A stretch of 64,000 nt of DNA. Origin: Mytilus galloprovincialis. Taxonomy: Eukaryota; Mollusca; Bivalvia; Mytilida; Mytilidae. Under the pieces are notes generated by a model. The model had not been told where the DNA came from and made no database searches. It saw only the letters and a list, made by a program, of their open reading frames with translations. The position numbers and the translations under genes were made by a program. The DNA is taken from NCBI RefSeq assembly GCF_965363235.1, contig NC_134849.1:20300863-20364862 (forward strand). Reading direction: 5' to 3'. Positions 5,881 to 60,870 of the stretch are shown piece by piece (the stretch's first letter is position 1; each line of letters opens with the position of its first letter).

Positions 5881-8800
5881 CATCCGTCAGTCCGTCCGTC
5901 CGTCCGTCCGTCAGTCCTGTTTCTTGTCATCGCAACTCCTCTCAAACCACACAACAGAATTTCACGAAACCTTTTCAGATAATAAGGACATACTATGTAG
6001 TTATGCATATTGATGGGAAATTGCGATTCAATTTTTTTTCTAGGAGTTTACGCCCCTTTGAACTTATTTACTTTAATGTACTACTGCAACAGTTTGTCAT
6101 CGCAACTCCTCTCAAACCACACAACAGAATTTCACGAAACCTTTTCAGACAATAAGGACATACTATGTAGTTGTTCATATGGACGGGAAATTGAGATTCA
6201 ATTTTTTTTCTAGGAGTTATGCCCCTTTGAACTTATTTGCTTCAATGTACTTCTGCAACAGTTTGTCATCTCAACTCCTCTGAAAACACACAACAGAATT
6301 TCATGAAATTTTGTGATAATAAGGACATACTATGTAGATGTGTATATTGACAGGAATTTATTATTCAGTATTTTTTCTTATACAATTTTTTTTTCTTATA
6401 CTTATTTAATTTCTCCAATGACAATGTGGGGATTTAATTTCTCCAATGACAATGTGGGGACGTGGGGTATGTGAGCGTGCTCACTAAGGTTCTTTAATTT
6501 GATTTTAGCCGTGTCCCCTCTAAAACAACTTCTGATGCCTTAGAGATAATTCCTTTTTCATGCAGAATTTTCAGGGTTCTCAATATTGTGTATGCTCTAG
6601 CTAATATTTGTGTTGTTTCCCAGTGAAATCAGGTCGCAGCTACCTACTTTATAATTTATGTTTTAGGCAGGATTTGTGGCAGCATTTCCATACCTAGTGA
6701 TGGGATCAGTTGTGATGTCATCTGGTTTCTTTGCCGACTATATATATATATATCTGAGAGGAAGAGCAGTGGTGTCTACAACAGCTATCCGTAAACTATT
6801 TACTTGTGGGGGTAAGAGAAGTTCTCTTTTCAGCTTTCCGTTGAAATTAACCAACTGTATTGATAAGTGTTTGTTTCTATGTTAAAAACTTTGATTACCA
6901 GAATAATGAGATTAATGAATACAATCTACATATATTTCTGAATTGATAGTATAAGAAATTACAATTGTTTCTCAATTCATGGAAAGTGGTACTCACAAAA
7001 ATGGAGAAAAAAACACAGGATTTGTTTTCGCCAATTCATAATATAAAATGAATATTCCAATTCCAATGAGAATAGATGGGTCATTATTTATACAAGGTTC
7101 AGATTTAACAGTTTTATCTATTCATTATTTTTCAGCCTTTTTTTTTCGGTTGATATTCATGGTAGCAGCTGGATACAGTATGACTCCAGTTGTTGTCTAT
7201 GTTTGCCTGGCATTATCAGTAGGATTAGGTGGGTTTGCCTGGGCCGGATTCAGTGTAAATCACCTGGATATAGCACCACAGGTATATATTAAAAGGTTTA
7301 TAAATAGATTTAAGCCAAACTTGTCATATATGTTCTTTGAAAGTCCCAACACAACTGTTGTTACTTTCATACTGATTGAAAATTCAAAATGGCCGTCTGA
7401 TGTCACCATACCTGTCAACTGACCCGTATTCTGCGGGTGTGACCCGAGATTTTCACAATTCTGAGGGATCACCCGGAACACCCGCCGGGTCATTGAAATA
7501 ACCCGGGAATTCCGAATATGACCCGATTTCACCCGTATTTCTTAGCCTTGAGATTGATTTCATAAGTAATATTCCTTTGAAATACCGGGAAATTCGTAAT
7601 TCTTCCATGAACAGGAAGTTCATCTAGCTATGTAAACTGTCAAATTAAGTGACCCATTAAGTGCATGGCTTCTCTTGACAGCTTTGGTGTCAAACACACT
7701 GTTAATTAACACCAATTACCTTAGCTTTAGGTCGTAAATAAATTGGACCATAATTTGGTTTACAAACTGAACTAGAGTTACTTCCCCTTATTTGTCACCA
7801 TTCAAAATGGTTCCTTATATTTACGTTTTATGGGTGAAAAAGATTAAATCATATAAATATAAAATTCAAATACATATTGAAAAATAACTTTTCATTATTT
7901 TTATACCTTTACACAATTTTTTAAAAAAAGTTGAAAATTATTTTTTACATTTATACTTCCTTTAACTGTATTACTATATTTTATCATAGTCTAATTTCCT
8001 TATAAATAAAAAATATAGTGGTTAAAGGCTACATAGTAAATAGTCTCAAACATTATTGATTTACATTAAATTCTAGTGTTTGATGATTTTAGTATTTTTT
8101 CTCAAAAGTGAAACACATAAGACAGAGATACACAATTTATAAAAATCATTAAAAGTTAATGAAATAATATTTTATTAGATTTAAAATGACTTAACAAAGT
8201 TAACATGCATTGATGTTTTGGTATCTTTGATATACATTATAAGACAATGTACCATAAATACTGAAATTCAGCTCGAAAAAGTTCGTACGCGTTATGACCT
8301 GAGATTTGATACTTCAATGCAGGTCATGACCTGCATTTTCATCGTCACAGGTTGACAGGTATGTGTCACAAATGAAAATTCAAAATTGGCGACCACCTAA
8401 GCTCAAAGTTATCTTGTAACTCTACAGGAAATTACTTTTGATTTTTAATTATAAACAGACGACCTTAAATGAAAATATTTGTTTTTAAATGTTCATTAGA
8501 AGGTTTTTACCAAGTGCATAACTTTGATCCTCATAAAAGGACCATAATGATTCACAGGGGGCTAAATTAGAGTCAGTTGATCAAAGAACTATTTGAAACA
8601 AAACTTTAAATGTTTCTGTGGAGGTCTCAAATAAAAGATTACTTCTTTAAAAGTTATAAAGACTGGGAGAGCAAAGGCCAAAGTTTACATCAAATAGCTA
8701 TTGAAAACAAAATTTGATTTTATATTTTAAGAAACATCTGACAGAACTTTTCAGTCTCCTAGGAATCTTTCGTTTTCATATGTTGCATGAATAGAACTGA

Positions 8801-29282: not shown

Positions 29283-30846
29283 TTGTTGATATTATATTGA
29301 CAATGACGTAGTTAAAAGGCAGTGGCTATTTGACCGGCACTGAATAAAACTTCTAATTGATGTGATTAGTAGAGAATAAAAAAAAGCTTTATTATATTAA
29401 AAATTGAACGATGGATAGTCAGTGCGTGAATTTTTCTTGCTACCTGATTGGAAGATATTACGAGACGTGAATAATCAAAGTTTATTGATTGGTTAGGACA
29501 ATCCAAACCTAGTAAATGTCCTTCAATCCCGTAGAGTATCTGCTTTGTCCTCTCTATTTTAGCAATTAGATTTTGCCTGGTCATTAATCATGCATATTCA
29601 TGATATTGGTACACAGGTAACTTTTATCTATAAATAGTTTTCTGGAGTTTCGTAAACAACAACGTTTAACGATATATACTACTTCATAACGTGTTACCTC
29701 ACGTGTGAGGTAAAATTTGTTGATTGATGCACGTGGCTATTCTAATAAATGAATTATTCTACAAAGCGAGAGCACTTTCCATTTTCCTCAGCTAAGAGTC
29801 GACTAGCCCTTTTTGAAAGGCTAATGCTTGTAATAATTTAAAATCATTTTATCACAATATCAAGCATTAATAAAAATACAGTACAATCAAAAATAAAAGA
29901 TTTAAGATTTTCATAAATAAATAATTTATCACTTTATAATATTAATTCAAGGCATGAAATTAAATTTGTAAACATTATTAAATATATTTTTTTCTAAAAT
30001 ATTTATAAAAAAGTTGATTTTCAAATCTATGTAAAATCTATGGTTTAAATATCCTGCCAGTGATAAAAATGGTGTCATCATTAAACAGACATTACAGACT
30101 AAATTAATAGTTGTTTGCTATGAATTTCAAATGGACACATGATTTAACATTTGTAATTGTTACAAAACCAACTATTTGCTCTTGGAAGTTGTTTTAGTCT
30201 AGGACAAGAAAAATGTTGCCACTCCAAACATAAACTACACGTTACCCTGGCTTCCTTTGAATCTACATCATGTGTGCATATGTTCCATATGTAGATAGGG
30301 TTCTTTTTTCTTCTCTTCATATACGCTCTAAATAGCCAGGGGTGTAGCTAGGCCAAAATGGTGTGTACTCAATGTCGGGGGTAAGTCATACGACGAGGGG
30401 TCTTGGGCCGCCTAATTTATCAATAGATAAATTATTTTATATCTAATAAATTATTATTAAGCTCTGGTGTTTATAGTGAAAAATCCTGCATTCTCGCAAT
30501 TTCATGGGACTTAGCATGACCTCACAAAAATGATATTTTCAGTATCTAAAAATCAACTTTTGAAACTAAATTTATGATAAATAAATTTGAAGAAAACATA
30601 ATCATTATTATTTAGAGAAACATAAACTTCTAATGTGTATTGGGTTGAACTAGATTGGATAATAATGAACAGCGTCTGTGCAACTTACTTGATATTTTTG
30701 AAATGAGAAAATACATAAATAAATACAATTACATTTCTCTATGTTTTAGTCTTTTTTTCAACTTTTAGTTCTCAAATATAATTCTAAAAATCAAGGACCA
30801 TTTCGATCCGTACTTTATTTGGCCTTTTTAACTTTTTGGGATTCGA

Positions 30847-30890
30847 GCGTCACTGATGAGTCTTTTGTTGACGAAACGCGCGTCTGGCGT
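30847..30890 (+). ncRNA. Type I hammerhead ribozyme motif (intact core)
   Basis: Segments in order: stem I 5' strand GCGTCA (30847-30852), core CTGATGA (30853-30859), stem II GTC/GAC with loop TTTTGTT (30860-30872), core GAAA (30873-30876), a minimal stem III within ACGCGCGT, cleavage site C (30884), stem I 3' strand TGGCGT (30885-30890). Stem I pairs over six bases with two G-U pairs. All conserved core bases are present. Very short stem III is known in metazoan type I hammerheads of non-autonomous retroelements (retrozymes), which often act as dimers. Cleavage here is inference. Confidence 0.85.
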
Positions 30891-31204
30891 ATATACAAAA
30901 TTTAGTCCTGGTATCTATGATGAGTTTATTTCCCTTCTTATACTGAAAAAAATTGCGTCTAATGAGATTTCTTTTTTTTCACTGTTCATGTCCATAAGAT
31001 CAAACCAGATAATCGCTTGACTATAATTGTATATCTCAAGTCTTTTCATGGTACTGAAAGACCATTCTGTCATTGCATCGGCAATTGTTTTAGATAAGAA
31101 GTTTAAGTGTTTATATGAGCAACAGTAATACAAGTGTTTAAATAGAAAATTTTGATATTTGATTATTATTCTTTATATTTAATTCCAGTGAGATATGATT
31201 TAAT

Positions 31205-31298
31205 CAGAGCCGGCTAAATAGCAAATTTGCTATTTTGCCGGTGCCGGTCAAATAGCAAATTTGCTATTTTTGCCGGTGCCGGTCAAATAGCCACTGCC
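31205..31298. repeat. Repeated palindromes at the right end of the 2-kb element
   Basis: AAATAGCAAATTTGCTATTT is a perfect 20-base palindrome and occurs twice, each time followed by TTGCCGGTGCCGG or similar. The last unit runs into the terminal repeat. Confidence 0.85.
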
Positions 31299-31535
31299 TA
31301 GATAAAAACGGAGTATTTGCAGTACATGACGTATACAAAGCACACACTTTCTCAGTGAAGTTAAAAATAAGTAGAAATGATAACAAAATGGAAATAAACG
31401 TACTGTAAAACAAATCTCATCTCGTCAAAATTGATGACGAAAGACACACGATAGCACGAAGGGAAACTAAGCAAAACTGCAACGCTTACAAAAAGGTACA
31501 CAAATCCATATTTGTTTGTCTTTATAGTGATTGGG

Positions 31536-31844: not shown

Positions 31845-32219
31845 ACAATGTTGACTGCTGTACTCCTATTTTTGACATTTGTACTTATTATGTCTGTTTG
31901 TCCTGTTCACACATCGTTGAATTGAATGATACACTATGCGCGAATGAAGTTGGTATATTGGTGCATAGGTCAGAAATATCTATTATTCCAAAGTTAAATA
32001 GTCTCGTTTTTCATTGATTGTAGAACAATACTAAGGTGACCACTTTTGTCAAACTATACGTTGTAATTATCTAGAAATGCGACAGAGAAAGCTATATCAG
32101 TCTGTGGCTTCTTAATCTCTAGTTCAGGTGGATATTAATAGGTTCCTATCAGAAAAGTTTGGATTGTTAATAGAAAGAACAATATACTAGTACCAGAATG
32201 TACAATTGAATGATCAAGC

Positions 32220-32271
32220 GAAACGCGCGTCTGGCGGACTAAATTATAATCCTGGTACCTTTGATAACTAG
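32220..32271 (+). mobile_element. 5'-truncated hammerhead element insertion
   Basis: The insertion starts at GAAACGCGCGTCTGGCG, so only the 3' half of the ribozyme core is present, then runs through 'taatcctggtacctttgata'. It is flanked by CAAGC on both sides (32215-32219 and 32272-32276). The paralogous sites in units 2 and 3 ('tgatcaagcttcgtgaag') lack it. The tail differs from that of the other three copies and marks a second subfamily. Confidence 0.75.
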
Positions 32272-33336
32272 CAAGCTCCTCGAAGGAACTTCTATGCAGA
32301 AGAAAGTGAGAAGCGAGTAAACAAATGTCAAACATACCTATCCCCTTTCGTCCAAAAGTCGGTTTTTTCACTTCTAATTTTCGTAGAACATGTCTTTCCA
32401 TTCACTATAAAATGCTTTACATGCATTACTTTTCATTGTAGATAAATTATGAAATGGAACTCTTAACAACAACAATAACGAAGAGTACAATCCCCTAAGG
32501 CATTTTCCATGGGCTTTAAATCTTCATAAAACGGGACCAAGTATTGTCTAACTTTTACAAACTTAAATTTGAACTTGTTCTGCATGTTTAGACAGTACAG
32601 TATTACAATAAACAACTCGAAAATTTCAATACCTGAATTGCAAAATATTTTCTGTTATTTTTGTTTTTTTAATTATGTAACAAAAGTTCTATTTTCTTCT
32701 AAAGATGTCTATATTTCTAACTGTTATGTGGAAACATAACTCAAAATAGCAAATGCACATAGTAACCATGTCAATTACTTCTTTTCAAGTTTTTATTCAC
32801 GTAAATTACAATTATAACGTATATCCTACTTTCAGAAAATGCATCATTTATTGTTTTTTAAGTAGGTTTAAGAACACACTGAATCAGACAAAGTACGTCT
32901 GTATCTAAAATTAACAAAACTTTTTCTTTGTCTGTAAAAGCGGAAATAATTAAAATGTCCTGTTAGATGTTTGAATTTCAGTGTACAATTTATCAGCTTT
33001 ACAGGGCAAACTTTTAGAATCCTGTAAAAAAAAAATGAAACTTTAAAGCCGTCAACATTCACAGGAAAATATTACTCTGTTACCGAATGTATAGTTTATT
33101 ATTTTACTCAAATAATTCAGCGCCCTCTTATGGTCAGTGTCATCCAGAGTTAATGTAGTGATGTCAGTGAGTTGAGTATAACGACTGGATTATTCGGGTT
33201 ATATATAAGTGAAAGGTTTACTAACGCAGGATATTAAATTAGTTTAACTGTATTAACTGACTACTTGTGGTAACATAGATGGTGAGAACTAGAGGCTACA
33301 AAATAATTTCAATTTCTCTGCGTTATTACAGCTGCA

Positions 33337-35832
33337 ATGAACGTTCTAAGGATATTCTACTTAGTGTTGTTTTTCCTCATAAATAAAAGTCTATCTTCAA
33401 AGTGTAGAACAACTAGAACCGGAAATGATGTTTTTACTGATTGTCATGGAAGGGGTTTCCGGTATGTGCCTAGAAATGTTCCTAACGATACGACATGTTT
33501 AGACTTGTCTGACAATGAGTTGTCCGTTATATCTAACTTTGCGTTTTTCAGACTTAAATATGTTTCTAGTTTGAAGTTATCATCGGCTCAGATATCAGTT
33601 ATCGAGTCAAAAGCGTTTTCTGGATTAGTTAAACTGACTTCTTTGGACCTGCGCAATAACACTCTTGATATCCATTCTTTACTGGAAAATGTTTTTAATT
33701 CATTACCTTTTTTAAAAATTTTAGATTTATCACAGAATAACTTCCACCAATACCCTGAGAAAGTTTTAGAAAACTTATCAGACTTAGAGAGATTATCAAT
33801 CAATGGTATAAACGAACAAACTTTTGGAAACGGATTTCGTTCTCTAAGTAAATTAACATATCTGAATTTTCATCCTTGTTCGATAACTCGAATAGACAAT
33901 ACAACATTTGATGTTTTTAAGAAAATACAATTGACGGAACTGATTTTGAATTGTAAGATAAGGTACGTGGAACCAGGCGCTCTCAATTCATTTCAGTCAA
34001 TAGAAAGACTCGATATTTCAAGGAACTTTAATAATGTGCGGATATCGTACCTGCTGCAAATACTTAACGGTCTTATGGACAGGAATGTAACATCAATAGA
34101 CTTTAGCAACAATTTCAGAACTATCCCAGCAGCTGACGTACTATTGGCGTCACAGTTTGCAATGATTGGTGCAGTCTGTGTGAAAGAAGTCGATTTGAGT
34201 CATAACCGTATTATATCGATACAGTCAGGCGGAATAAATCTAATGAAACATAAAAATTGCTTAGAAAAACTTATTCTCAAAGAGAATAGTATATGGGGTG
34301 ACCGTAGCCTTGCCATAGAAATGGTTAAACTGGTTAACCTTCGTTGGTTAGATATATCAAATCAGGCAACGTTACACGTCAAAAACAAAACTAACAAAAA
34401 CAAAACCGATGTGCGTCGTCTAGATAAGACAGATACAAACTATTTCTCTGACAGATTAACGTTTGTATTCCAACTCCCACATAATCTGCAATATATCGAC
34501 GCATCATATTTTGGCGAAAGAAATACTCGTCTAAATAATATAAATTTCACAAATGCTGGTAAATTAGATTTCTTAAATCTAGCTGGTAATAAATTCAAAG
34601 ATTGTCTTGGACATTTCCATGGACTGTCACATTTACAAACACTGGACATATCGGATTTTAATTGTAGTGATCTTGATCTAAAGATGATCAGTTTTATGCC
34701 ATACCTCAAAACACTAATTAGCAGAAGAACACATTTAAATGTAGGATTACAAAATGATGTAAATGGTGATTTTTTAAAACAGTTATTTGGGCTAAAACAG
34801 ATTGATTTCTCAGAAAATGAGTTTGTTACGTTTAATAAACACATGTTTGTATCGCAATACCGTTCCCTCATTTCACTGGATTTGTCAAAAAACAAATTTT
34901 CAAAATTTCCAATTCAAATCAGCAAATTTTCAACTTTAAAGAAATTAAGTCTCGTTCAAAATCGAATTGTTTTTCTGCTGAAATCTGATATGAATCAACT
35001 GGAGAACTACCAACGTGATAAACATATCAACTTTGAGCTCCTTTTGAATGACAATAGTTTCGTTTGCAATTGTGATTCGATCGATTTTGTGAAATGGCTC
35101 CAGGAAACAAAAGTGACACTAGATAACAACCGGAATTACTCGTGTATGTATATTGATAACAGCAAGAAAACAACAGTTTATGCATACACGCATCTTGACT
35201 TCATTGAGAGTAAATGCCTCAGTAAGATATGGCTTATTATTACAATAATTCTTGTGGTGGTTTTTCTTCTACTTTTCACAGCAAGTTCCTTAGTCTACAA
35301 ATATAGAATAACTGTACATTTTTGGTACCTACATATCCGCCGGAAGTATCGCCATTACACAGCACTGGAAGGAGATTCTAAAGAGTACAAGTATAATGCA
35401 TTCGTTGCTTATTGTAATGAAGATGAAGAATGGGTTTGTGGGTCTCTCGTTAATTATTTGGAAAAGACAAATGGTTTGGCATTATGTTTACACGATAGAG
35501 ATTTTGCAGCTGGGAAGCTCATTATGGATAATATCATAGACGCCATTTTCGAAAGCAAAAAAGTTGTCCTTGTTATCAGTGAAGAATTTCTAAAAAGTTC
35601 ATGGTGCGAGTTCGAACTTGATATGGCGAGAATGAAAATGTTTCAAGACAACAGAGATATGTTGGTCGTTGTCTTGTTGAACAAACTTTCTCCTTCACAA
35701 ATGCCAATTTCCTTACAGAGAATTTGGAACAAAGTGACATGCCTAGAATTTGATGAAATAATCTGTACAAATCAAAATGGCAATTTTGAACATTTATTCT
35801 GGAAAAGATTATATGAGGCAGTCGTGATGTAA
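33337..35832 (+). CDS. Toll-like receptor, copy 1 (831 aa)
   Basis: Single-exon membrane receptor of innate immunity. Residues 1 to about 22 are a signal peptide, followed by a cysteine cap (C23, C36). Leucine-rich repeats run from about 55 to 565, then one C-terminal cap with CNC at 577-579 ending at C627. Membrane segment about 631-654, TIR domain about 684-830. TIR box 1 is YNAFVAYC, box 2 HDRDFAAG (719-726), then SSWCEFELD, and box 3 FW at 821-822. One cysteine cluster next to the membrane marks a single-cluster (vertebrate-like) TLR. Known role of the family: ligand binding outside, then TIR-adaptor (MyD88-type) signalling to NF-kB; ligand not predictable. Ala replaces the usual BB-loop Pro at 725. 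The first Met, which starts the signal peptide, is chosen as start. It is the most divergent of the three copies and has one more residue than the other two. Confidence 0.96.
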   Translation: MNVLRIFYLVLFFLINKSLSSKCRTTRTGNDVFTDCHGRGFRYVPRNVPNDTTCLDLSDNELSVISNFAFFRLKYVSSLKLSSAQISVIESKAFSGLVKLTSLDLRNNTLDIHSLLENVFNSLPFLKILDLSQNNFHQYPEKVLENLSDLERLSINGINEQTFGNGFRSLSKLTYLNFHPCSITRIDNTTFDVFKKIQLTELILNCKIRYVEPGALNSFQSIERLDISRNFNNVRISYLLQILNGLMDRNVTSIDFSNNFRTIPAADVLLASQFAMIGAVCVKEVDLSHNRIISIQSGGINLMKHKNCLEKLILKENSIWGDRSLAIEMVKLVNLRWLDISNQATLHVKNKTNKNKTDVRRLDKTDTNYFSDRLTFVFQLPHNLQYIDASYFGERNTRLNNINFTNAGKLDFLNLAGNKFKDCLGHFHGLSHLQTLDISDFNCSDLDLKMISFMPYLKTLISRRTHLNVGLQNDVNGDFLKQLFGLKQIDFSENEFVTFNKHMFVSQYRSLISLDLSKNKFSKFPIQISKFSTLKKLSLVQNRIVFLLKSDMNQLENYQRDKHINFELLLNDNSFVCNCDSIDFVKWLQETKVTLDNNRNYSCMYIDNSKKTTVYAYTHLDFIESKCLSKIWLIITIILVVVFLLLFTASSLVYKYRITVHFWYLHIRRKYRHYTALEGDSKEYKYNAFVAYCNEDEEWVCGSLVNYLEKTNGLALCLHDRDFAAGKLIMDNIIDAIFESKKVVLVISEEFLKSSWCEFELDMARMKMFQDNRDMLVVVLLNKLSPSQMPISLQRIWNKVTCLEFDEIICTNQNGNFEHLFWKRLYEAVVM

Positions 35833-46150: not shown

Positions 46151-46322
46151 TTAACTGATCAAGCTTCGTGAAGGAACTTCCACTTAGACGAAAGCAAGGA
46201 GAGGATGAAGAAAAGAGAATTTACGTTGTTTAATTTTTCATCTTTTTATTTATCAGAAGAGGGTTAACAAATGAAATTGTAATTTTAGATTTTCTGCATG
46301 TTTGCACATACATTATTACAGA

Positions 46323-46616
46323 TAAACTCATCATAGATACCAGGACTAAATTTTGTATATACGCCAGACGCGCGTTTCGTCTACAAAAGACTCATCAGTG
46401 ACGCTCGAATCCAAAAAAGTTAAAAAGGTCAAATAAAATACGAAGTTTAAGAGCATTGAGTACCAAAATTCCTAAAAGTTTTGCCAAATCCAGCTTAGGT
46501 AATCTATGCTTGAGGTAGAAAAGCCTTAGTATAATGTTTTTCAAAAATTCAAAATTTTGTAAAAAATTAATTTATAATTATAACCATATCAATGATAATT
46601 CATGTCAGCACAAAAA
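46323..46616 (-). mobile_element. 294-bp hammerhead-bearing insertion, empty in unit 3
   Basis: Unit 3 at about 56180 reads 'cattattacagagatatcta' without a break; unit 2 has 294 bp more between ATTAC-AGA and AGA-GATATC. This gives a 3-bp target duplication AGA, short enough to be chance. The insert carries a complete hammerhead core on the minus strand and no coding frame. It resembles a monomeric retrozyme-like element. Confidence 0.8.
46361..46404 (-). ncRNA. Type I hammerhead ribozyme motif (intact core), minus strand
   Basis: Reading down from 46404: stem I GCGTCA, core CTGATGA, stem II GTC/GAC with loop TTTTGTA, core GAAA, minimal stem III, cleavage C (46367), stem I 3' strand TGGCGT. 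It differs from the 30.8-kb copy only in one stem II loop base. Confidence 0.86.
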
Positions 46617-46979: not shown

Positions 46980-47237
46980 ACCCTGATCACTGAAGTAAAA
47001 GAAAAGTTGTTAACTTTGATAGTTCCGCGCTCTCTTACAGTCGGTGTCCTCCTGACGTAAAAGGATGATTTGAGTGTGCGGAATATAAACACTGCATTAT
47101 TCGGGTTAGACATTTCGAGGATTATTGACTCAGCATATGTTCTTAAATATAACTGTATTACATGATTAGTTCCGTAAAAAGTGCGAACAAGGTGCTTAAA
47201 ATTAAAATTTCCTTTTCTCTGCGTTATTACAGCTACA
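46980..47237 (+). promoter_or_regulatory. Proximal 5' flank of receptor 2
   Basis: Shares TTCCGCGCTCTCTTACAGTC, CTGACGTAAAAGG, AATATAA (47082-47088) and ATTATTCGGGTTA with receptor 3; receptor 1 has a TATATAAG instead. It ends in TTCTCTGCGTTATTACAG, acceptor-like, five bases before the start codon. A core promoter near 47.08 kb is inference. Confidence 0.4.
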
Positions 47238-49730
47238 ATGAATATTTTAAGGATAGGTTACTTAGCGTCGTTATTCCTCATAAATAAAAGTCTGTCTGCA
47301 AAGTGTACAACAACCAGAACCGGAAATGACGTGAGTACAGATTGCCATGGAAAAGGTTTCCGGTATGTGCCTAGAAATATTCCTAACGATACTACATATT
47401 TGGACCTGTCTGCCAATGAGTTGTCCGTTATATCTAACTTCGCGTTTTCAAGACTAAAACATGTTTCTAGTTTGAAGTTATCATCGGCTCAGATATCAGC
47501 TATCGAGTCAAACGCGTTTTCTGGATTAGTTAAACTGACTTCTTTGGACCTGCGCAATAACACTCTTGATATCCATTCTTTACCGGAGACTGTTTTTGAT
47601 TCATTATCTTTTTTGAGGATTTTAGATTTATCACAGAATAACTTCCGGTATTATCCTGAGAAAGTTTTAGAAAAATTATCTAACTTAGAGAGATTATCAA
47701 TCAATGGTTTAAACGACCAAACTTTTGGAAACGGTTTTCGTTCTCTACGTAAATTAACATATCTGAATTTTGAACCTTGTACGATTACCAGAATGGACAA
47801 CAACACATTTGATGTTTTTGAGAACATACAATTGAAGGAATTGATTTTTCAATGTAAGATAAGGTACGTGGAACCAGGCGCTCTCAACCCATTTCAGTCA
47901 ATAGAAAGACTCGATATTTCAAAGAACTTTAATGTGCGGATATCGTACCTGCTGCAATTACTTAACGGTCTTATGGACAGAAATGTAACATCAATAGACT
48001 TTAGCTACAATTTCAGAACTATCCCAGCCTCTGACGTATTATTGGCGTCACAGTTTGCAATGATTGGTGCAGTCTGCGTAAAAGAAGTCGATTTGACTCG
48101 TAACCAAATAATATCGATACAGTCAGGAGGAATAAATCTAATGAAACATAAAAATTGCTTAGAAAAACTTATTCTCAAAGAGAATAGTATATGGGGTGAC
48201 AGGAGTATTGCCATAGAAATGGTTAAACTGGTTAACCTTCGTTGGTTAGATATTTCGAATCAGGCAACGATACACGTCAAAACGAATGCTTACAAAAACA
48301 AAACTTGTTTACGTCGTTTAGATATGACAGATACAAACTATTCCTCTGACAGATTAACGTTTGTATTCCAACTACCACGTAATCTGCAATATATCGACGC
48401 ATCATATTTGGGCGTAAAAGGTACTGGTCTAAATAATATAAATTTCACAAATGCTGGTAAATTAGATTTCTTAAATCTAGCTGGTAATAAATTCAAAGAT
48501 TGTCTTGGACATTTCCATGGACTGTCACATTTACAAACACTGGACATATCGGATTTTAATTGTAGTGAGCTTGATCTAAAGATGATCAGTTTTATGCCTT
48601 ACCTCAAAACACTAATTAGCAGAAGAACACATTTAAATGTCGGATTACAAAACGATGTTAATGGTGAATTTCTAAAACAATTATTTGGGCTAAAACTGAT
48701 TGATTTCTCAGAAAATGACTTTGTTACGTTTAATAAACACATGTTTGTATCGCAATATCGTTCCCTCATTTCATTGGATTTATCAAAAAACAAATTTTCA
48801 AAATTTCCAATTCAAATCAGCAAATTTTCAACTTTAAAGAAATTAAGTCTCGTTCAAAATCGAATTGCTTTTCTGCAGAAATCTGATATGAATCAATTGG
48901 AGAACTACCAACGTGATAAACATATCAACTTTGAGCTTCTTTTGAATGACAATAATTTCGTTTGCAATTGTGATTCGATCGATTTTGTGAGATGGCTCCA
49001 GGAAACAAAAGTTACACTAGATAAAAACCGCAATTACTCGTGTGTGTATATTGATAACAGCAAGAAAACAACAGTTTATGCATACACGCATCTTGAATTC
49101 ATTGAGAGTAAATGCCTCAGTAAGATATGGCTTACCATTACAATAATTCTTGTGGTGGTTTTTCTTCTACTTTTCACAGCTAGTTCCTTAGCCTACAAAT
49201 ATAGAATAACTCTACATTTTTGGTACCTTCATATCCGCCGAAAGTACCGCCATTACACAGCACTGGAAGGAGATTCTAATGAGTACAAGTATAATGCATT
49301 CGTTGCTTATTGTACTGCAGATGGAGAATGGGTTTGTGGGTCTCTCGTTAATTATTTGGAAAAGATAAATGGTTTGTCATTATGTTTACACGACAGAGAT
49401 TTTGCAGCTGGCAGGCTCATAATGGATAATATCATAGACGCCATTTTTGAAAGCAAAAAAGTGGTCCTTGTTATCAGTGAAGAATTCCTAAAAAGTTCAT
49501 GGTGTGAATTCGAACTTGATATGGCGAGAATGAAAATGTTTCAAGACAACAGAGATATGTTGGTCGTTGTTCTGTTGGACAAACTTTCTCCTTCACAAAT
49601 GCCAATTTCCTTACAGAGAATCTGGAACAAAGTGACATGCCTAGAAGTTGATGAAATATTCTATACAAATCAAAATGGCAATTTTGAACATTTATTCTGG
49701 AAAAGATTATATGAAGCAGTCGTGATGTGA
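47238..49730 (+). CDS. Toll-like receptor, copy 2 (830 aa)
   Basis: Same layout as the 33.3-kb receptor: signal peptide 1 to about 22, leucine-rich repeats, single C-terminal cysteine cap, membrane segment about 630-653, TIR about 683-829 with box 2 HDRDFAAG. The frame stays open 57 bases further up, but that part has no ATG start and would place 19 polar and basic residues before the signal peptide, so ATG 47238 is chosen. By eye about 41 of 830 residues differ from copy 3, most of them in the ectodomain. Two AATAAA signals follow at 49786 and 49808, shared with copy 3. Distinct features: N not K before EYKYNAF, G in TADGEW. Ligand unknown; it probably acts beside its neighbours as one of a set of diversified receptors. 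Confidence 0.96.
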   Translation: MNILRIGYLASLFLINKSLSAKCTTTRTGNDVSTDCHGKGFRYVPRNIPNDTTYLDLSANELSVISNFAFSRLKHVSSLKLSSAQISAIESNAFSGLVKLTSLDLRNNTLDIHSLPETVFDSLSFLRILDLSQNNFRYYPEKVLEKLSNLERLSINGLNDQTFGNGFRSLRKLTYLNFEPCTITRMDNNTFDVFENIQLKELIFQCKIRYVEPGALNPFQSIERLDISKNFNVRISYLLQLLNGLMDRNVTSIDFSYNFRTIPASDVLLASQFAMIGAVCVKEVDLTRNQIISIQSGGINLMKHKNCLEKLILKENSIWGDRSIAIEMVKLVNLRWLDISNQATIHVKTNAYKNKTCLRRLDMTDTNYSSDRLTFVFQLPRNLQYIDASYLGVKGTGLNNINFTNAGKLDFLNLAGNKFKDCLGHFHGLSHLQTLDISDFNCSELDLKMISFMPYLKTLISRRTHLNVGLQNDVNGEFLKQLFGLKLIDFSENDFVTFNKHMFVSQYRSLISLDLSKNKFSKFPIQISKFSTLKKLSLVQNRIAFLQKSDMNQLENYQRDKHINFELLLNDNNFVCNCDSIDFVRWLQETKVTLDKNRNYSCVYIDNSKKTTVYAYTHLEFIESKCLSKIWLTITIILVVVFLLLFTASSLAYKYRITLHFWYLHIRRKYRHYTALEGDSNEYKYNAFVAYCTADGEWVCGSLVNYLEKINGLSLCLHDRDFAAGRLIMDNIIDAIFESKKVVLVISEEFLKSSWCEFELDMARMKMFQDNRDMLVVVLLDKLSPSQMPISLQRIWNKVTCLEVDEIFYTNQNGNFEHLFWKRLYEAVVM

Positions 49731-56010: not shown

Positions 56011-56559
56011 AAAATTAACTGATCAAGCTTCGTGAAGGAACTTCGACTTAGACGAAAGCAAGGAGAGGGAGAAGAAAATAGGGTTTTTGTTGTTTATTTT
56101 TTCTTTCACAGAAAAGGGTTAACAAATAAAATTTTAATTTTAGATTTTGCTGAATGTTTGTGCACATACATTATTACAGAGATATCTATACTTTTAGCTG
56201 TCACAGGAAAGAAAATCTCAAAAAAGCAATATTTAACTAAAGTAATTATGTCAATTAATTCTTTTCAACTTTTGATTCTCGTTAACTATATTTAATATTT
56301 ATATCATACTTTCAGAAAATGTATAATATATTTGCATTCAAGTAGATTTAAGAGCATACTTGACCAGCTAATGACATCTGTATCTATATTTAACAAACTA
56401 ATATTTTTATCTGTAAATGAGGAAGTTTTCTAAAATGTTCTATCTCAAAATTTCAGAATCAGTATACAATAAACCTTCTTTTCAGTGCAGACATATTTCA
56501 AAATTATTATAAAATGGAACTTAAAAACCGTAAACATTATAGGAAAATATTACCCTGAT

Positions 56560-56809
56560 CACTGAAGTAAAAGGAAAGTTGTAAACTTGGATAGTTCCGC
56601 GCTCTCTTACAGTCGGTGTCCTCCTGACGTAAAAGGGTGATTTGAGTGAGCGGAATATAAGGACTGGATTATTCGGGTTAGAAATTCCGAGGATTATTGA
56701 CTCAGCATATGTACGTAAATATCACTGTATTGAATGATAAGTTCCGTAAATAGTGAGAACAAGGTGCTCAAAAATTAAATTTCCATTTCTCTGTGTTACT
56801 ACAGCTACA
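56560..56809 (+). promoter_or_regulatory. Proximal 5' flank of receptor 3
   Basis: Same blocks as for receptor 2: CTGACGTAAAAGG, AATATAAG (56654-56661), ATTATTCGGGTTA, and an acceptor-like TTCTCTGTGTTACTACAG right before the start codon. Confidence 0.4.
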
Positions 56810-59302
56810 ATGAATATTCTAAGGATAGTTTACTTAGCGTCGTTATTCCTCATAGATAAAAGTCTTTCTGCAAAGTGTACAACAACTAGAACCGGAAATG
56901 ACGTGAGTACAGATTGCCATGGAAAAGGTTTCCGGTATGTGCCTAAAAATATTCCTAACGATACTACATATTTGGACCTGTCTGCCAATGAGTTGTTCGT
57001 TATATTTAACTTCGCGTTTTCAAGACTAAAACATGTTTCTAGTTTGAAGTTATCATCGGCACAAATATCAGTTATCGAGTCAAACGCGTTTTCTGGATTA
57101 GTTAAACTGACTTCTTTGGACCTGTGCAATAACACACTAGATATCCATTCTTTACCGGAGACTGTTTTTGATTCATTATCTTTTTTGAGGATTTTAGATT
57201 TATCACAGAATAACTTCCGTTATTATCCTGAGAAAATTTTAGTAAAATTATCAGAGTTAGAGAGATTATCAATCAATGGTATAAACGACCAAACTTTTGG
57301 AAACGGTTTTCGTTCTTTACGTAAATTAACATATCTGAAGTTTGAACCTTGTACGATAACCAGAATGGACAACAACACATTTGATGTTTTCAAGAACATA
57401 CAATTAAAGGAACTGATTTTTCAATGTAAGATAAGGTACGTGGAACCAGGCGCTCTCAACCCATTTAAGTTAATAGAAAGACTCGATATTTCAAAGAACT
57501 TTAATGTCCGGATATCGTATCTGCTGCAATTACTTAACGGTCTTATGGACAGAATTGTGACATCAATAGACTTTAGCCACAATTTCAGAACTATCCCAGC
57601 CGCTGACGTATTATTGGCGTCACAGTTTGCAATGATTGGTGCAGTCTGCGTAAAAGAAGTCGATTTGACTCGTAACCAAATAATATCGATACAGTCAGGA
57701 GGAATAAATCTAATGAAACATAAAAATTGCTTAGAAAAACTTATTCTCAAAGAAAATAGTATATGGGGTGACAGGAGTATTGCCATAGAAATTGTTAAAC
57801 TGGTTAACCTTCGTTGGTTAGATATTTCGAATCAGGCAACGATACACGTCAAAACGAATGCTTACAAAAACAAAACTTGTTTACGTCGCCTAGATATGAC
57901 AGATACAAACTATTCCTCTGACAGATTAACGTTTGCATTCCAACTACCACGTAATCTGCAATATATCGACGCATCATATTTGGGCGCAAGAGATAGTGGT
58001 TTAGTTAATCTTAATTTCACAAATGCTGGTAAATTAGATTTCTTAAATCTAGCTGGTAATAAATTCGTAAATTGTCTTGGACATTTCCATGGACTGTCAC
58101 ATTTACAAACACTGGACATATCGGATTTTAATTGTAGTGAGCTTGATCTAAAGATGATTAGTTTTATGCCATACCTCAAAACACTAATTAGCAGAAGAAC
58201 ACATTTAAATGTCGGATTACAAAATGATGTAAATGGTGAATTTTTAAAACAGTTATTTGGGCTGAAACAGATTGACTTCTCAGAAAATGACTTTGTTACG
58301 TTTAATAAACACATGTTTGTATCACAATATCGTTCCCTCATTTCACTGGATTTATCAAATAACAAATTTTCAAAATTTCCAATTCCAATTAACAAATTTT
58401 CAACTTTAAAGAAATTAAGTCTCGTTCAAAATCGAATTGCTTTTCTGCAGAAATCTGATATGAATCAATTGGAGAACTACCAACGTGATAAACAAATCAA
58501 CTTTGAGCTTCTTTTGAATGACAATAATTTCGTTTGCAATTGTGATTCGATCGATTTTGTGAGATGGCTCCAGGAAACAAAAGTTACACTAGATAAAAAC
58601 CGCAATTACTCGTGTGTGTATATTGATAACAGCAAGAAAACAACAGTTTATGCATACACGCATCTTGAATTCATTGAGAGTAAATGCCTCAGTAAGGTAT
58701 GGCTTACCATTACAATAATTCTTGTGGTGGTTTTTCTTCTACTTTTCACAGCAAGTTCCTTAGCCTACAAATATAGAATAACTCTACATTTTTGGTACCT
58801 TCATATCCGCCGAAAGTACCGCCATTACACAGCACTGGAAGGAGATTCTAAAGAGTACAAGTATAATGCATTCGTTGCTTATTGTACTGCAGATGAAGAA
58901 TGGGTTTGTGTGTCTCTCGTTAATTATTTGGAAAAGACAAATGGTTTGTCATTATGTTTACACGATAGAGATTTTGCAGCTGGGAGGCTCATTATGGATA
59001 ATATCATAGACGCCATTTTTGAAAGCAAAAAAGTGGTCCTTGTTATCAGTAAAGAATTCCTAAAAAGTTCATGGTGTGAGTTCGAACTTGATATGGCGAG
59101 AATGAAAATGTTTCAAGACAACAGAGATATGTTGGTCGTTGTCCTGTTGGACAAACTTTCTCCTTCACAAATGCCAATTTCCTTACAGAGAATCTGGAAC
59201 AAAGTGACATGCCTAGAAGTTGATGAAATAATCTATACAAATCAAAATTGCAATTTTGAACATTTATTCTGGAAAAGATTATATGAAGCAGTCGTGATGT
59301 GA
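56810..59302 (+). CDS. Toll-like receptor, copy 3 (830 aa)
   Basis: Same architecture as the other two: signal peptide, cysteine cap, leucine-rich repeats to about 564, cap CNC, membrane segment about 630-653, TIR about 683-829 with HDRDFAAG in box 2 and FW in box 3. ATG 56810 begins the signal peptide; the upstream open frame (57 bases) has no ATG. Differences from copy 2 concentrate in the ectodomain, for example LDLCNN (Arg to Cys in a repeat), GARDSGLVNLNF and KFVNCL. In the TIR, K replaces E in VISKEFL, and NQNCNF gains a Cys. Two AATAAA signals follow at 59357 and 59379. Intact frame, likely functional; ligand unknown. Confidence 0.96.
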   Translation: MNILRIVYLASLFLIDKSLSAKCTTTRTGNDVSTDCHGKGFRYVPKNIPNDTTYLDLSANELFVIFNFAFSRLKHVSSLKLSSAQISVIESNAFSGLVKLTSLDLCNNTLDIHSLPETVFDSLSFLRILDLSQNNFRYYPEKILVKLSELERLSINGINDQTFGNGFRSLRKLTYLKFEPCTITRMDNNTFDVFKNIQLKELIFQCKIRYVEPGALNPFKLIERLDISKNFNVRISYLLQLLNGLMDRIVTSIDFSHNFRTIPAADVLLASQFAMIGAVCVKEVDLTRNQIISIQSGGINLMKHKNCLEKLILKENSIWGDRSIAIEIVKLVNLRWLDISNQATIHVKTNAYKNKTCLRRLDMTDTNYSSDRLTFAFQLPRNLQYIDASYLGARDSGLVNLNFTNAGKLDFLNLAGNKFVNCLGHFHGLSHLQTLDISDFNCSELDLKMISFMPYLKTLISRRTHLNVGLQNDVNGEFLKQLFGLKQIDFSENDFVTFNKHMFVSQYRSLISLDLSNNKFSKFPIPINKFSTLKKLSLVQNRIAFLQKSDMNQLENYQRDKQINFELLLNDNNFVCNCDSIDFVRWLQETKVTLDKNRNYSCVYIDNSKKTTVYAYTHLEFIESKCLSKVWLTITIILVVVFLLLFTASSLAYKYRITLHFWYLHIRRKYRHYTALEGDSKEYKYNAFVAYCTADEEWVCVSLVNYLEKTNGLSLCLHDRDFAAGRLIMDNIIDAIFESKKVVLVISKEFLKSSWCEFELDMARMKMFQDNRDMLVVVLLDKLSPSQMPISLQRIWNKVTCLEVDEIIYTNQNCNFEHLFWKRLYEAVVM

Positions 59303-59928: not shown

Positions 59929-60870
59929 TAGCTATTTCCTTTGCAATTTTCAAATTGTCAAGGTTCCCTTGAACGTGACTTGATTAGTCCTTGTTTAAAT
60001 TTTCGGCTGGAATTAAGCTTACATTTATCGATATGTCCATCTCTTTTCCAAATAGCAAGTAGAAGGGTGAAAGTTCTGATGATGGTGACAGACTCTTTCG
60101 GAATGCCAATAGACAATAGCATGTAAAATAATACTTCTGTTGCATGGCCCAGTAAGTTTGATCAACTCCAAGTTTCATATGTCATGGTATGCTGTCATTA
60201 GATTAGATTACAGACTACGAGGACAGACGAGTTGTTTAATAAAACAACCATCTTTTTGTTTATCTCTTGATCATGGTTGATATAAGTGATACAGTACCCC
60301 ATCTCGTAGACCATATTGATTGGATTCAGCTAGTGTCTTCTGTTGATATAAGTGATACAGTACCCCATCCCGTAGACCATATTGATTGGATTCAGCTAGT
60401 GTCTTCTGATTTTTGTCTTTGTTGTTTGGAATTTTTCAACTATGCAGTTTAGCATAAATGTCTTTAATGTCTGGACAGTCTTTTTGTAATCAACCAATGT
60501 CTCTTGGATCTGTTGTTTTTACATCAACTGATTGTTTTGGCTTTCATGGATTTCCATTGTACATCAATGATGTTTCTAGAGGCTCATGTCTGTCTTGTAA
60601 TGCATTGAGTTGGACATGTGGTTTGACATCTTCAGGTTCCTCTGCAGTGACATCAGATGTTTTGTTGTTTTCTCCTTATCGATGACTTATGTCGAAGGTA
60701 AATACCTGATGAAGAACTGCCCATCTCGCTAACCGACCTGTTGATGGCTTAATACTTGTTAAATATGTCAATGTATTGTGGTCTGTATAAATTTTGAACT
60801 TGTCGTTAGCAAGGTATACATGATATCTTTTAATACCGCTTTCTACTGCAAGACATTCTTATGCTCTTCA
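59929..60870 (-). mobile_element. Fossil Ty3/gypsy-type LTR retroelement pieces (unit 4)
   Basis: Minus strand: an integrase C-terminal region (about 59984-60178, with a family-typical 'SPFYLLFG' stretch) and an RNase H-like region (about 60690-60870, with 'TDHNTLTYL'). This copy keeps the RNase H part that units 2 and 3 lack. Broken in several places, no LTR recognised. Confidence 0.7.
60276..60407. repeat. Tandem pair, 66-bp unit
   Basis: 'gttgatataagtgatacagt' starts two adjacent units at 60276 and 60342 that differ at two bases. It lies within the fossil element and is a recent local duplication. Confidence 0.9.

Follow-up and report, generated by a model that had tools for sequence, protein, structure and literature searches.

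Introduction

The retrozyme of Mytilus galloprovincialis has been described as a family of repeats of about 350-390 bp, which carry two similar ribozyme families and reach about 5,000 copies in an older draft genome (PMC7229834). The mussel repeat cleaves itself with a kobs of about 0.1 per min and gives rise to abundant circular RNA by RtcB ligation, and the target site duplications (TSDs) of retrozymes, when present, exceed 4 bp (PMC7229834). According to the published model, retrozyme circles could be reverse-transcribed into multimers, the candidate enzymes for the return of animal retrozymes to the genome being Penelope-like elements or LINEs (PMC7229834, PMC7761336). The palindromic helix III described for amphibian retrozymes suits dimeric hammerheads (PMC7229834).

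A second system similar to the element studied here is the Penelope-like element of Anolis. Its protein starts reverse transcription in vitro inside the RNA, at an AC-rich stem-loop 3' of the hammerhead; it cuts AT-rich sites and needs the RNA 3' of the start, while hammerhead cleavage is dispensable (PMC11167929).

In this paper, we analyse a 64,000-nt stretch of the mussel genome (C12:20300863-20364862, “the window”) together with related repeats elsewhere. The kind of element present in the window and its ribozyme are already known, and the ribozyme finding is ordinary in kind; what is new is the insertion anatomy, i.e., a fixed internal 3' end. Our literature search, with subscription journals and supplements outside its scope, found no paper linking retrozymes to internal initiation.

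Results

A type I hammerhead core is located at positions 30847..30890 of the plus strand, where an earlier note on this DNA had placed it, and is recovered both by a sequence pattern and by a pairing-based descriptor. The second core proposed there, with the same core letters, is found by both approaches at 46361..46404 on the minus strand. The first core reads GCGTCA CTGATGA GTC TTTTGTT GAC GAAA CGCGCG TC TGGCGT and contains all the parts previously claimed for it: CTGATGA, stem II GTC/GAC, GAAA, and the six pairs of stem I GCGTCA/TGGCGT, two of which are G-U. Stem III is formed by the palindromic ACGCGCGT, and the usual fourth pair of stem II is lost (GTCTTTTGTTGAC versus GTCTTTTGTAGAC), leaving this stem with 3 bp instead of 4. 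Cleavage is predicted after C30884, between 30884 and 30885, and in the minus-strand copy between 46367 and 46366. With its CUGANGA...GAAA core, three helices, NUH cleavage site and ends in helix I, the 30847-30890 motif is a genuine type I hammerhead, predicted from its letters to be self-cleaving.

The Rfam model RF00163 (Hammerhead_1, type I) aligns to this motif end to end with 32.1 bits (E 3.6e-6, 501 bases searched), just under the gathering score of 34 bits, and an Rfam scan of the whole 64-kb window at the gathering level gave no matches. Ten copies from elsewhere in the genome, which were picked as high scorers from a genome-wide RF00163 search, reach 34.2-42.4 bits, all over the gathering score; nine of them align to family A and one to family B of the window's repeat. 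The absence of any hit to hammerhead models, named in the earlier note as refuting, is thus avoided narrowly by the window copy, which scores below the gathering level, and clearly by its relatives.

A look-alike without ribozyme function, arisen by chance or by decay, could explain the low Rfam score of the window copy as well as an A-A mismatch at the helix II base of a related family (family C, see below). This reading is made highly improbable by two lines of evidence. The core pattern with up to three mismatches occurs twice in the window and never in 100 shuffles, which bears out the claim that the motif is not due to chance, and the pairing-based descriptor detects 81 motifs in 341 kb, two of them within the window, and none in 20 Markov-resampled sets. 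Moreover, the families differ by compensatory changes in each of the three stems, while the catalytic letters are retained.

Covariation was analysed in 69 distinct sequences from families A, B, D, E and F, with family C left out; since this set was found by pattern (up to four substitutions), the letters fixed by the pattern are biased towards conservation. Two-sided changes are present in 7 of 13 pairs (shuffled mean 3.6, reached by 6 of 500 shuffles) and in 32 cells (shuffled mean 5.9, reached by 0 of 500). Among the slid controls, the -2 slide comes nearest, with 6 pairs and 20 cells. Stem I, singled out in the earlier note as the helix in which to look for covariation, has two-sided changes in three of its six pairs.

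To see how large the family is, we searched the whole genome (1,384,861,812 bases, 331 contigs). Allowing up to two mismatches, the core pattern matches 39,017 times (19,385 forward and 19,632 reverse), and the reversed-pattern control has no match. The search with RF00163, in which 74 of 224,653 first-look candidates were scored, gave at least 37 matches, at least 29 of them over the cut-off. In the first 10.16 Mb of contig C1, perfect cores form 79 clusters: 64 single, 11 double, 3 triple and 1 of five. Spacing in the multiple-core clusters is unit-like (336-368 or 716-725 bp) in 12 of 15 and 145-225 bp in the other three. The unit is about 355 bp long, with a core spacing of 353-368 bp, and no ORF was seen in it. 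It contains no reverse transcriptase (RT) or GIY-YIG frame, so that it lacks the two enzymes, RT and GIY-YIG endonuclease, encoded by a Penelope-like element. The some 39,000 cores, the unit-spaced clusters and the covariation of the stems support the proposal that the hammerhead lies in a retrozyme-like repeat, and it is nearly certain that it sits within a retrozyme family.

Related hammerheads form several further families. Family D (GCATCA CTGAAGA GAC..GTC GAAA TGCGCA TC TGGTGC) has 7,949 pattern matches and family C (CCTGATGAAGGTAAATCCAGAAAAGCGCTTC) has 2,547, both with 0 matches in the control. The base of helix II is intact in families A, B and D; the activity of the family C ribozyme is doubtful because of the A-A mismatch at this position. 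Helix III is an eight-letter palindrome in every family (ACGCGCGT, ATGCGCAT, ATCCGGAT, ATCTAGAT, AAGCGCTT). The lesser families E and F are represented in locus L046, at 6554-7005 (-) and 7540-7583 (+), by unrelated repeats about 407-408 bp apart with the palindromes ATCCGGAT and ATCTAGAT. Loci L021, L022 and L023 represent a tandem segmental duplication, in which one set of retrozyme and family D copies is present in triplicate at steps of about 6.2 kb. A tRNA-derived SINE (Nin type) was also considered; in a search of two loci with ARAGORN, no tRNA was predicted. Viral contigs contain no exact core matches; a looser core pattern has one match in a Streptosporangium contig.

Inside the window, the 30847-30890 core belongs to a single, 5'-truncated family B copy of 122 bp (30809..30930, +), which in the circular alignment extends from unit position 246 to the junction with 94% identity and terminates at the 3' end common to the family (see below). 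The minus-strand core lies in another single, 5'-truncated family B copy of 295 bp (46322..46616, -), with the common 3' end and a 2-bp target duplication. Two window copies are added here to those listed before. One is a 52-bp family A copy (32219..32270, +), which has the common 3' end and is truncated inside the ribozyme, without CTGATGA and stem II. The other is a family B copy at 60856..~60987 (+), in which one A is missing from the GAAA core; its 3' end is at about 60987, and the circular alignment continues as far as 61022 with 79% identity. The 122- and 295-bp copies have one ribozyme each. Judging from their sequence, they could cut a read-through transcript; being 5'-truncated and having a single ribozyme, they could not release a unit circle by themselves. 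The window copies are dead, 5'-truncated fragments of a metazoan non-LTR retrozyme. Positions 31205-31300 of the window, a few hundred bases 3' of the first copy, contain a short direct repeat around GCCGGTGCCGGTCAAATAGCAAATTTGCTATTT.

The window also contains three long LRR + TIR frames of the Toll-like receptor type (Pfam LRR_8, TIR) on the plus strand, at 33307-35829, 47178-49727 and 56750-59299. The last two share their upstream DNA, and a retrozyme insertion is present in only one of the two upstream regions: the 46322-46616 copy lies 562 bp upstream of frame 47178-49727, and the duplicate frame 56750-59299 has the same upstream sequence without the insertion. The empty counterpart of the site is at 56160..56200 (-), with the junction near 56179, in the duplicated upstream region of this next LRR-TIR gene; the flanks are 94.1% identical over 1,069 aligned positions.

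The anatomy of insertion was studied by aligning copies to circular references, one genomic unit each of family A and family B. The sample, which comprised contig C1 up to 5.95 Mb and the window, contained 93 non-redundant copies. We scored 67 of them, leaving out 4 cut by the locus end, 20 with a score below 60 and 2 segmental duplicates (L022, L023); the shortest copies are under-represented, because a ribozyme core was the basis on which most loci were selected. The 3' end falls within 12 nt of one internal unit position in 61 of 67 copies (within 5 nt in 55) and elsewhere in the remaining six, while 5' ends come within 12 nt of this point in 4 of 67 copies and within 5 nt in none. The common 3' end is about 43-44 nt 3' of the cleavage site; it was found in 45 of 46 anchor copies and in 16 of 21 “bystanders”, which were not chosen by a perfect core. 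Family A copies end in ...GATAACTA(TTTA) and family B copies in ...GATGAGTTTA(TT).

The 5' ends are scattered, and copy lengths vary from 0.2 to more than 4 units; 22 of the 61 common-end copies are longer than one unit, the longest being 1,501 bp. All 61 extend past the cleavage site. A cut linear monomer is therefore not the template for these copies, because only about 43-44 nt of it would lie upstream of the start; templates that do fit are a circle and an uncut multimer, if copying begins internally. The claim is that long copies exist, and the absence of short ones is not implied. Of the 61, only the copy at locus L028 (C1:2815990-2816379, -) has its 5' end exactly on the cleavage site, as if copying ran to the end of a cut RNA, although this single case may be due to chance.

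An empty counterpart site is available for 8 of the 61 common-end copies, including the one inside the window; 11 had given a candidate, and L005, L047 and L048 were dropped as self-matches. The eight copies sit in repeated or duplicated DNA with an empty version at hand. Their target duplications, with lengths read by eye, are 0-6 bp, some with filler bases, and one nested insertion is accompanied by a deletion of about 8 bp. At locus L001, the target is TCATTTTTTA/GTAGC inside an RT-like frame. The right flank begins with T in six of the eight copies and in 50 of 58 in a wider set, where this base may belong to the element. Judged by flank matching, target duplications of at least 6 nt are not in excess overall (8/58, permuted mean 4.3, maximum 10). 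The common 3' end, the 5' truncation and the eight empty sites indicate that the element is mobile by reverse transcription, and insertion by reverse transcription from a fixed internal start is very probable.

These data also bear on the idea that the arrays are satellite DNA growing by exchange at the DNA level, with retroposition rare and the ribozyme a passenger. In favour of it, 44 family D cores follow each other at exact 350-bp steps in C1:433306-448387 (edge in locus L004), with the printed 32 letters identical, and some retrozyme arrays are internally very alike (L014, L042, L044). However, 64 of the 79 clusters are single cores scattered over 10 Mb, and the common 3' end with random 5' truncation, like the empty sites with 0-6 bp duplications, is at variance with such an origin, which is weakened by the empty sites and appears improbable. 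Exchange may nevertheless contribute to array growth after insertion. In family A, the mean distance between units is 0.053 within arrays (31 pairs) versus 0.096 between them (742 pairs); in family B, it is 0.103 (3 pairs) versus 0.110 (78 pairs). In L037 and L039, for example, the distance from a unit to units outside its array is equal to or smaller than that to units within it. Because array units are not always closest to each other, these distances do not separate a circle, a multimer and later DNA exchange.

The retrozyme has the following layout: the hammerhead, a fixed step, the start in TTTACACCAC or TTTACAACCAC, and then a conserved folded domain of about 83 nt. The analysis of this domain, which used 12 of 41 distinct domain sequences, gives modest support for the fold: 31 pairs, five with two-sided change, and a covariation term of -1.04.

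Candidate helpers were sought among putative Penelope-like frames, recognised here by their GIY-YIG domain (PF01541; E 2.3e-7 in a candidate frame). The genome search gave at least 150 GIY-YIG matches (150 of 2,581 candidates scored), with stop-free frames up to 795 aa. GIY-YIG copies are often paired in opposite orientation at a distance of no more than a few kb, the minus-strand copy coming first, as in C2:56110245-56112145, C3:40200954-40202371 and C8:85318436-85320489. A minimal hammerhead-like motif of the candidate Penelope-like elements has 157 copies (control 0). In 39 of the 44 copies that were checked, the motif begins downstream of the endonuclease match, at an interval of exactly 93 nt. 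The 44 endonuclease matches, out of the 150 listed, have an identity of at least 89%, reach residue 180 and are located on contigs C1-C10; the motif positions set against them were 40 of the 100 listed among the 157, all perfect matches on contigs up to C11. No hammerhead is near the endonuclease match at C6:8269907 among the matches listed, and a motif missing from the 39/44 count may be a copy with one mismatch.

The pairing descriptor found the hammerhead-like motif in L046, L062 and L063 and not in L064. L063 represents another lineage with a comparable motif, and L064 has only a decayed motif, recognised by eye. Rfam lists no hammerhead in the Penelope-like regions even at E 10, so that these motifs are defined by the descriptor and by their fixed position. 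Compared by eye, the L046 and L062 copies of the Penelope-like sequence both end about 55-61 nt beyond the cleavage site. No sequence likeness was found between the retrozyme unit and the three Penelope-like 3' regions examined. We lean slightly towards the view that the enzyme behind the insertions belongs to a Penelope-like element.

RT-like fragments of the L037 and L048 types found near retrozymes were also considered as helpers and dropped: Pfam gives no hit at E 0.01 for three of the pieces (one L037, two L048) and, for a fourth (L048), one weak DUF match below the cut-off. The L037-type element lies next to the L008 retrozyme but is separate from it, and the L001 retrozyme array is inserted within an L048-type frame. 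A 738-aa frame at L050:661-2874 (+) matches DUF1759, DUF1758 and an aspartyl protease, domains known from retroelement polyproteins.

Discussion

The observed motif and family, the stem covariation, the common 3' end with scattered 5' ends, and the empty sites are best explained as a whole by a hammerhead residing in dead retrozyme copies that were made by internal-start copying by a reverse transcriptase; we give this reading a probability of about 0.7. One can suggest that transcripts from arrays of the ~355-bp unit would be cut by neighbouring hammerheads and that the monomers would be closed into circles by a host ligase, as published for a mussel. At an AT-rich nick in the genome, a reverse transcriptase would then copy the circle, or an uncut multimer, starting from one fixed point about 43-44 nt 3' of the cleavage site, just 5' of the ~83-nt folded domain. 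The enzyme would run until it stops, leaving a fixed 3' end, scattered 5' ends, variable lengths and 0-6 bp duplications. Of the two templates, we tentatively favour the circular over the multimeric one.

The same copies could have been produced from an uncut multimeric array transcript by an ordinary LINE-type enzyme recognising the 3' region of the repeat, the circles being a by-product. The long copies fit uncut multimers as well as circles, and a fixed 3' end with 5' truncation is a textbook trait of LINEs and SINEs too. However, a tail shared with another element was not noticed in the loci examined, and a start about 43-44 nt past the hammerhead and before a folded domain seems more Penelope-like than a LINE terminus would be. 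We therefore regard the LINE-type route as rather unlikely.

Within the reading of internal-start copying, we tentatively propose, at slightly less than even odds, that retrozymes “ride” on the reverse transcriptase of Penelope-like elements and that the circle carries a portable internal start module composed of the AC-rich start and the ~83-nt domain. If so, a circle having no 3' end could be copied directly into a nicked chromosome, one round following another, with the hammerhead making the circle and the start module loading the enzyme. This would explain the arrays with one broken unit at the 5' end, and such genomes would document the reverse transcription of circular or multimeric RNA. 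The common internal 3' end (61/67) and the empty sites make it possible to ask directly whether a Penelope-like protein initiates at that base on a retrozyme circle.

Among the known systems, the satellite-type retrozymes of axolotl and newt (PMC7229834) resemble the mussel families in the palindromic helix III and in the helix II base mismatch of one family, which is U-U in axolotl HHR_Amex2 and A-A in family C. They differ in the host and in the unit, which is apparently unrelated, and the helix II base of families A, B and D is intact.

The described mussel retrozyme (PMC7229834) is much closer. In common with it, the element studied here has a type I hammerhead with weak loop contacts, a unit in the ~350-390 bp range, tandem arrays, no ORF seen, an AT-rich sequence, thousands of copies and two similar main families (A and B here); the match is based on the described size, arrays and families and not on a letter comparison with the published sequences. 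In contrast to that report, about 39,000 A/B cores instead of about 5,000 copies are present, together with families D and C, and the target duplications are 0-6 bp versus more than 4 bp in print (PMC7229834). The common internal 3' end, the 5' truncation and the empty sites are not described for the mussel retrozyme in the text of PMC7229834 and PMC7761336 considered here, and the words “truncated” and “tail” are absent from the main text of the former.

Unlike Penelope-like elements, the retrozyme is non-coding. It has no sequence in common with their three 3' regions examined here, and its step from hammerhead to start is about 43-44 nt versus 85-92 nt (by subtraction, PMC11167929). The overall plan is nevertheless the same in both: a hammerhead, a fixed step, an AC-rich internal start, and a 3' sequence that is needed or conserved, combined with AT-rich targets and with tandem and partial-tandem copies (PMC11167929).
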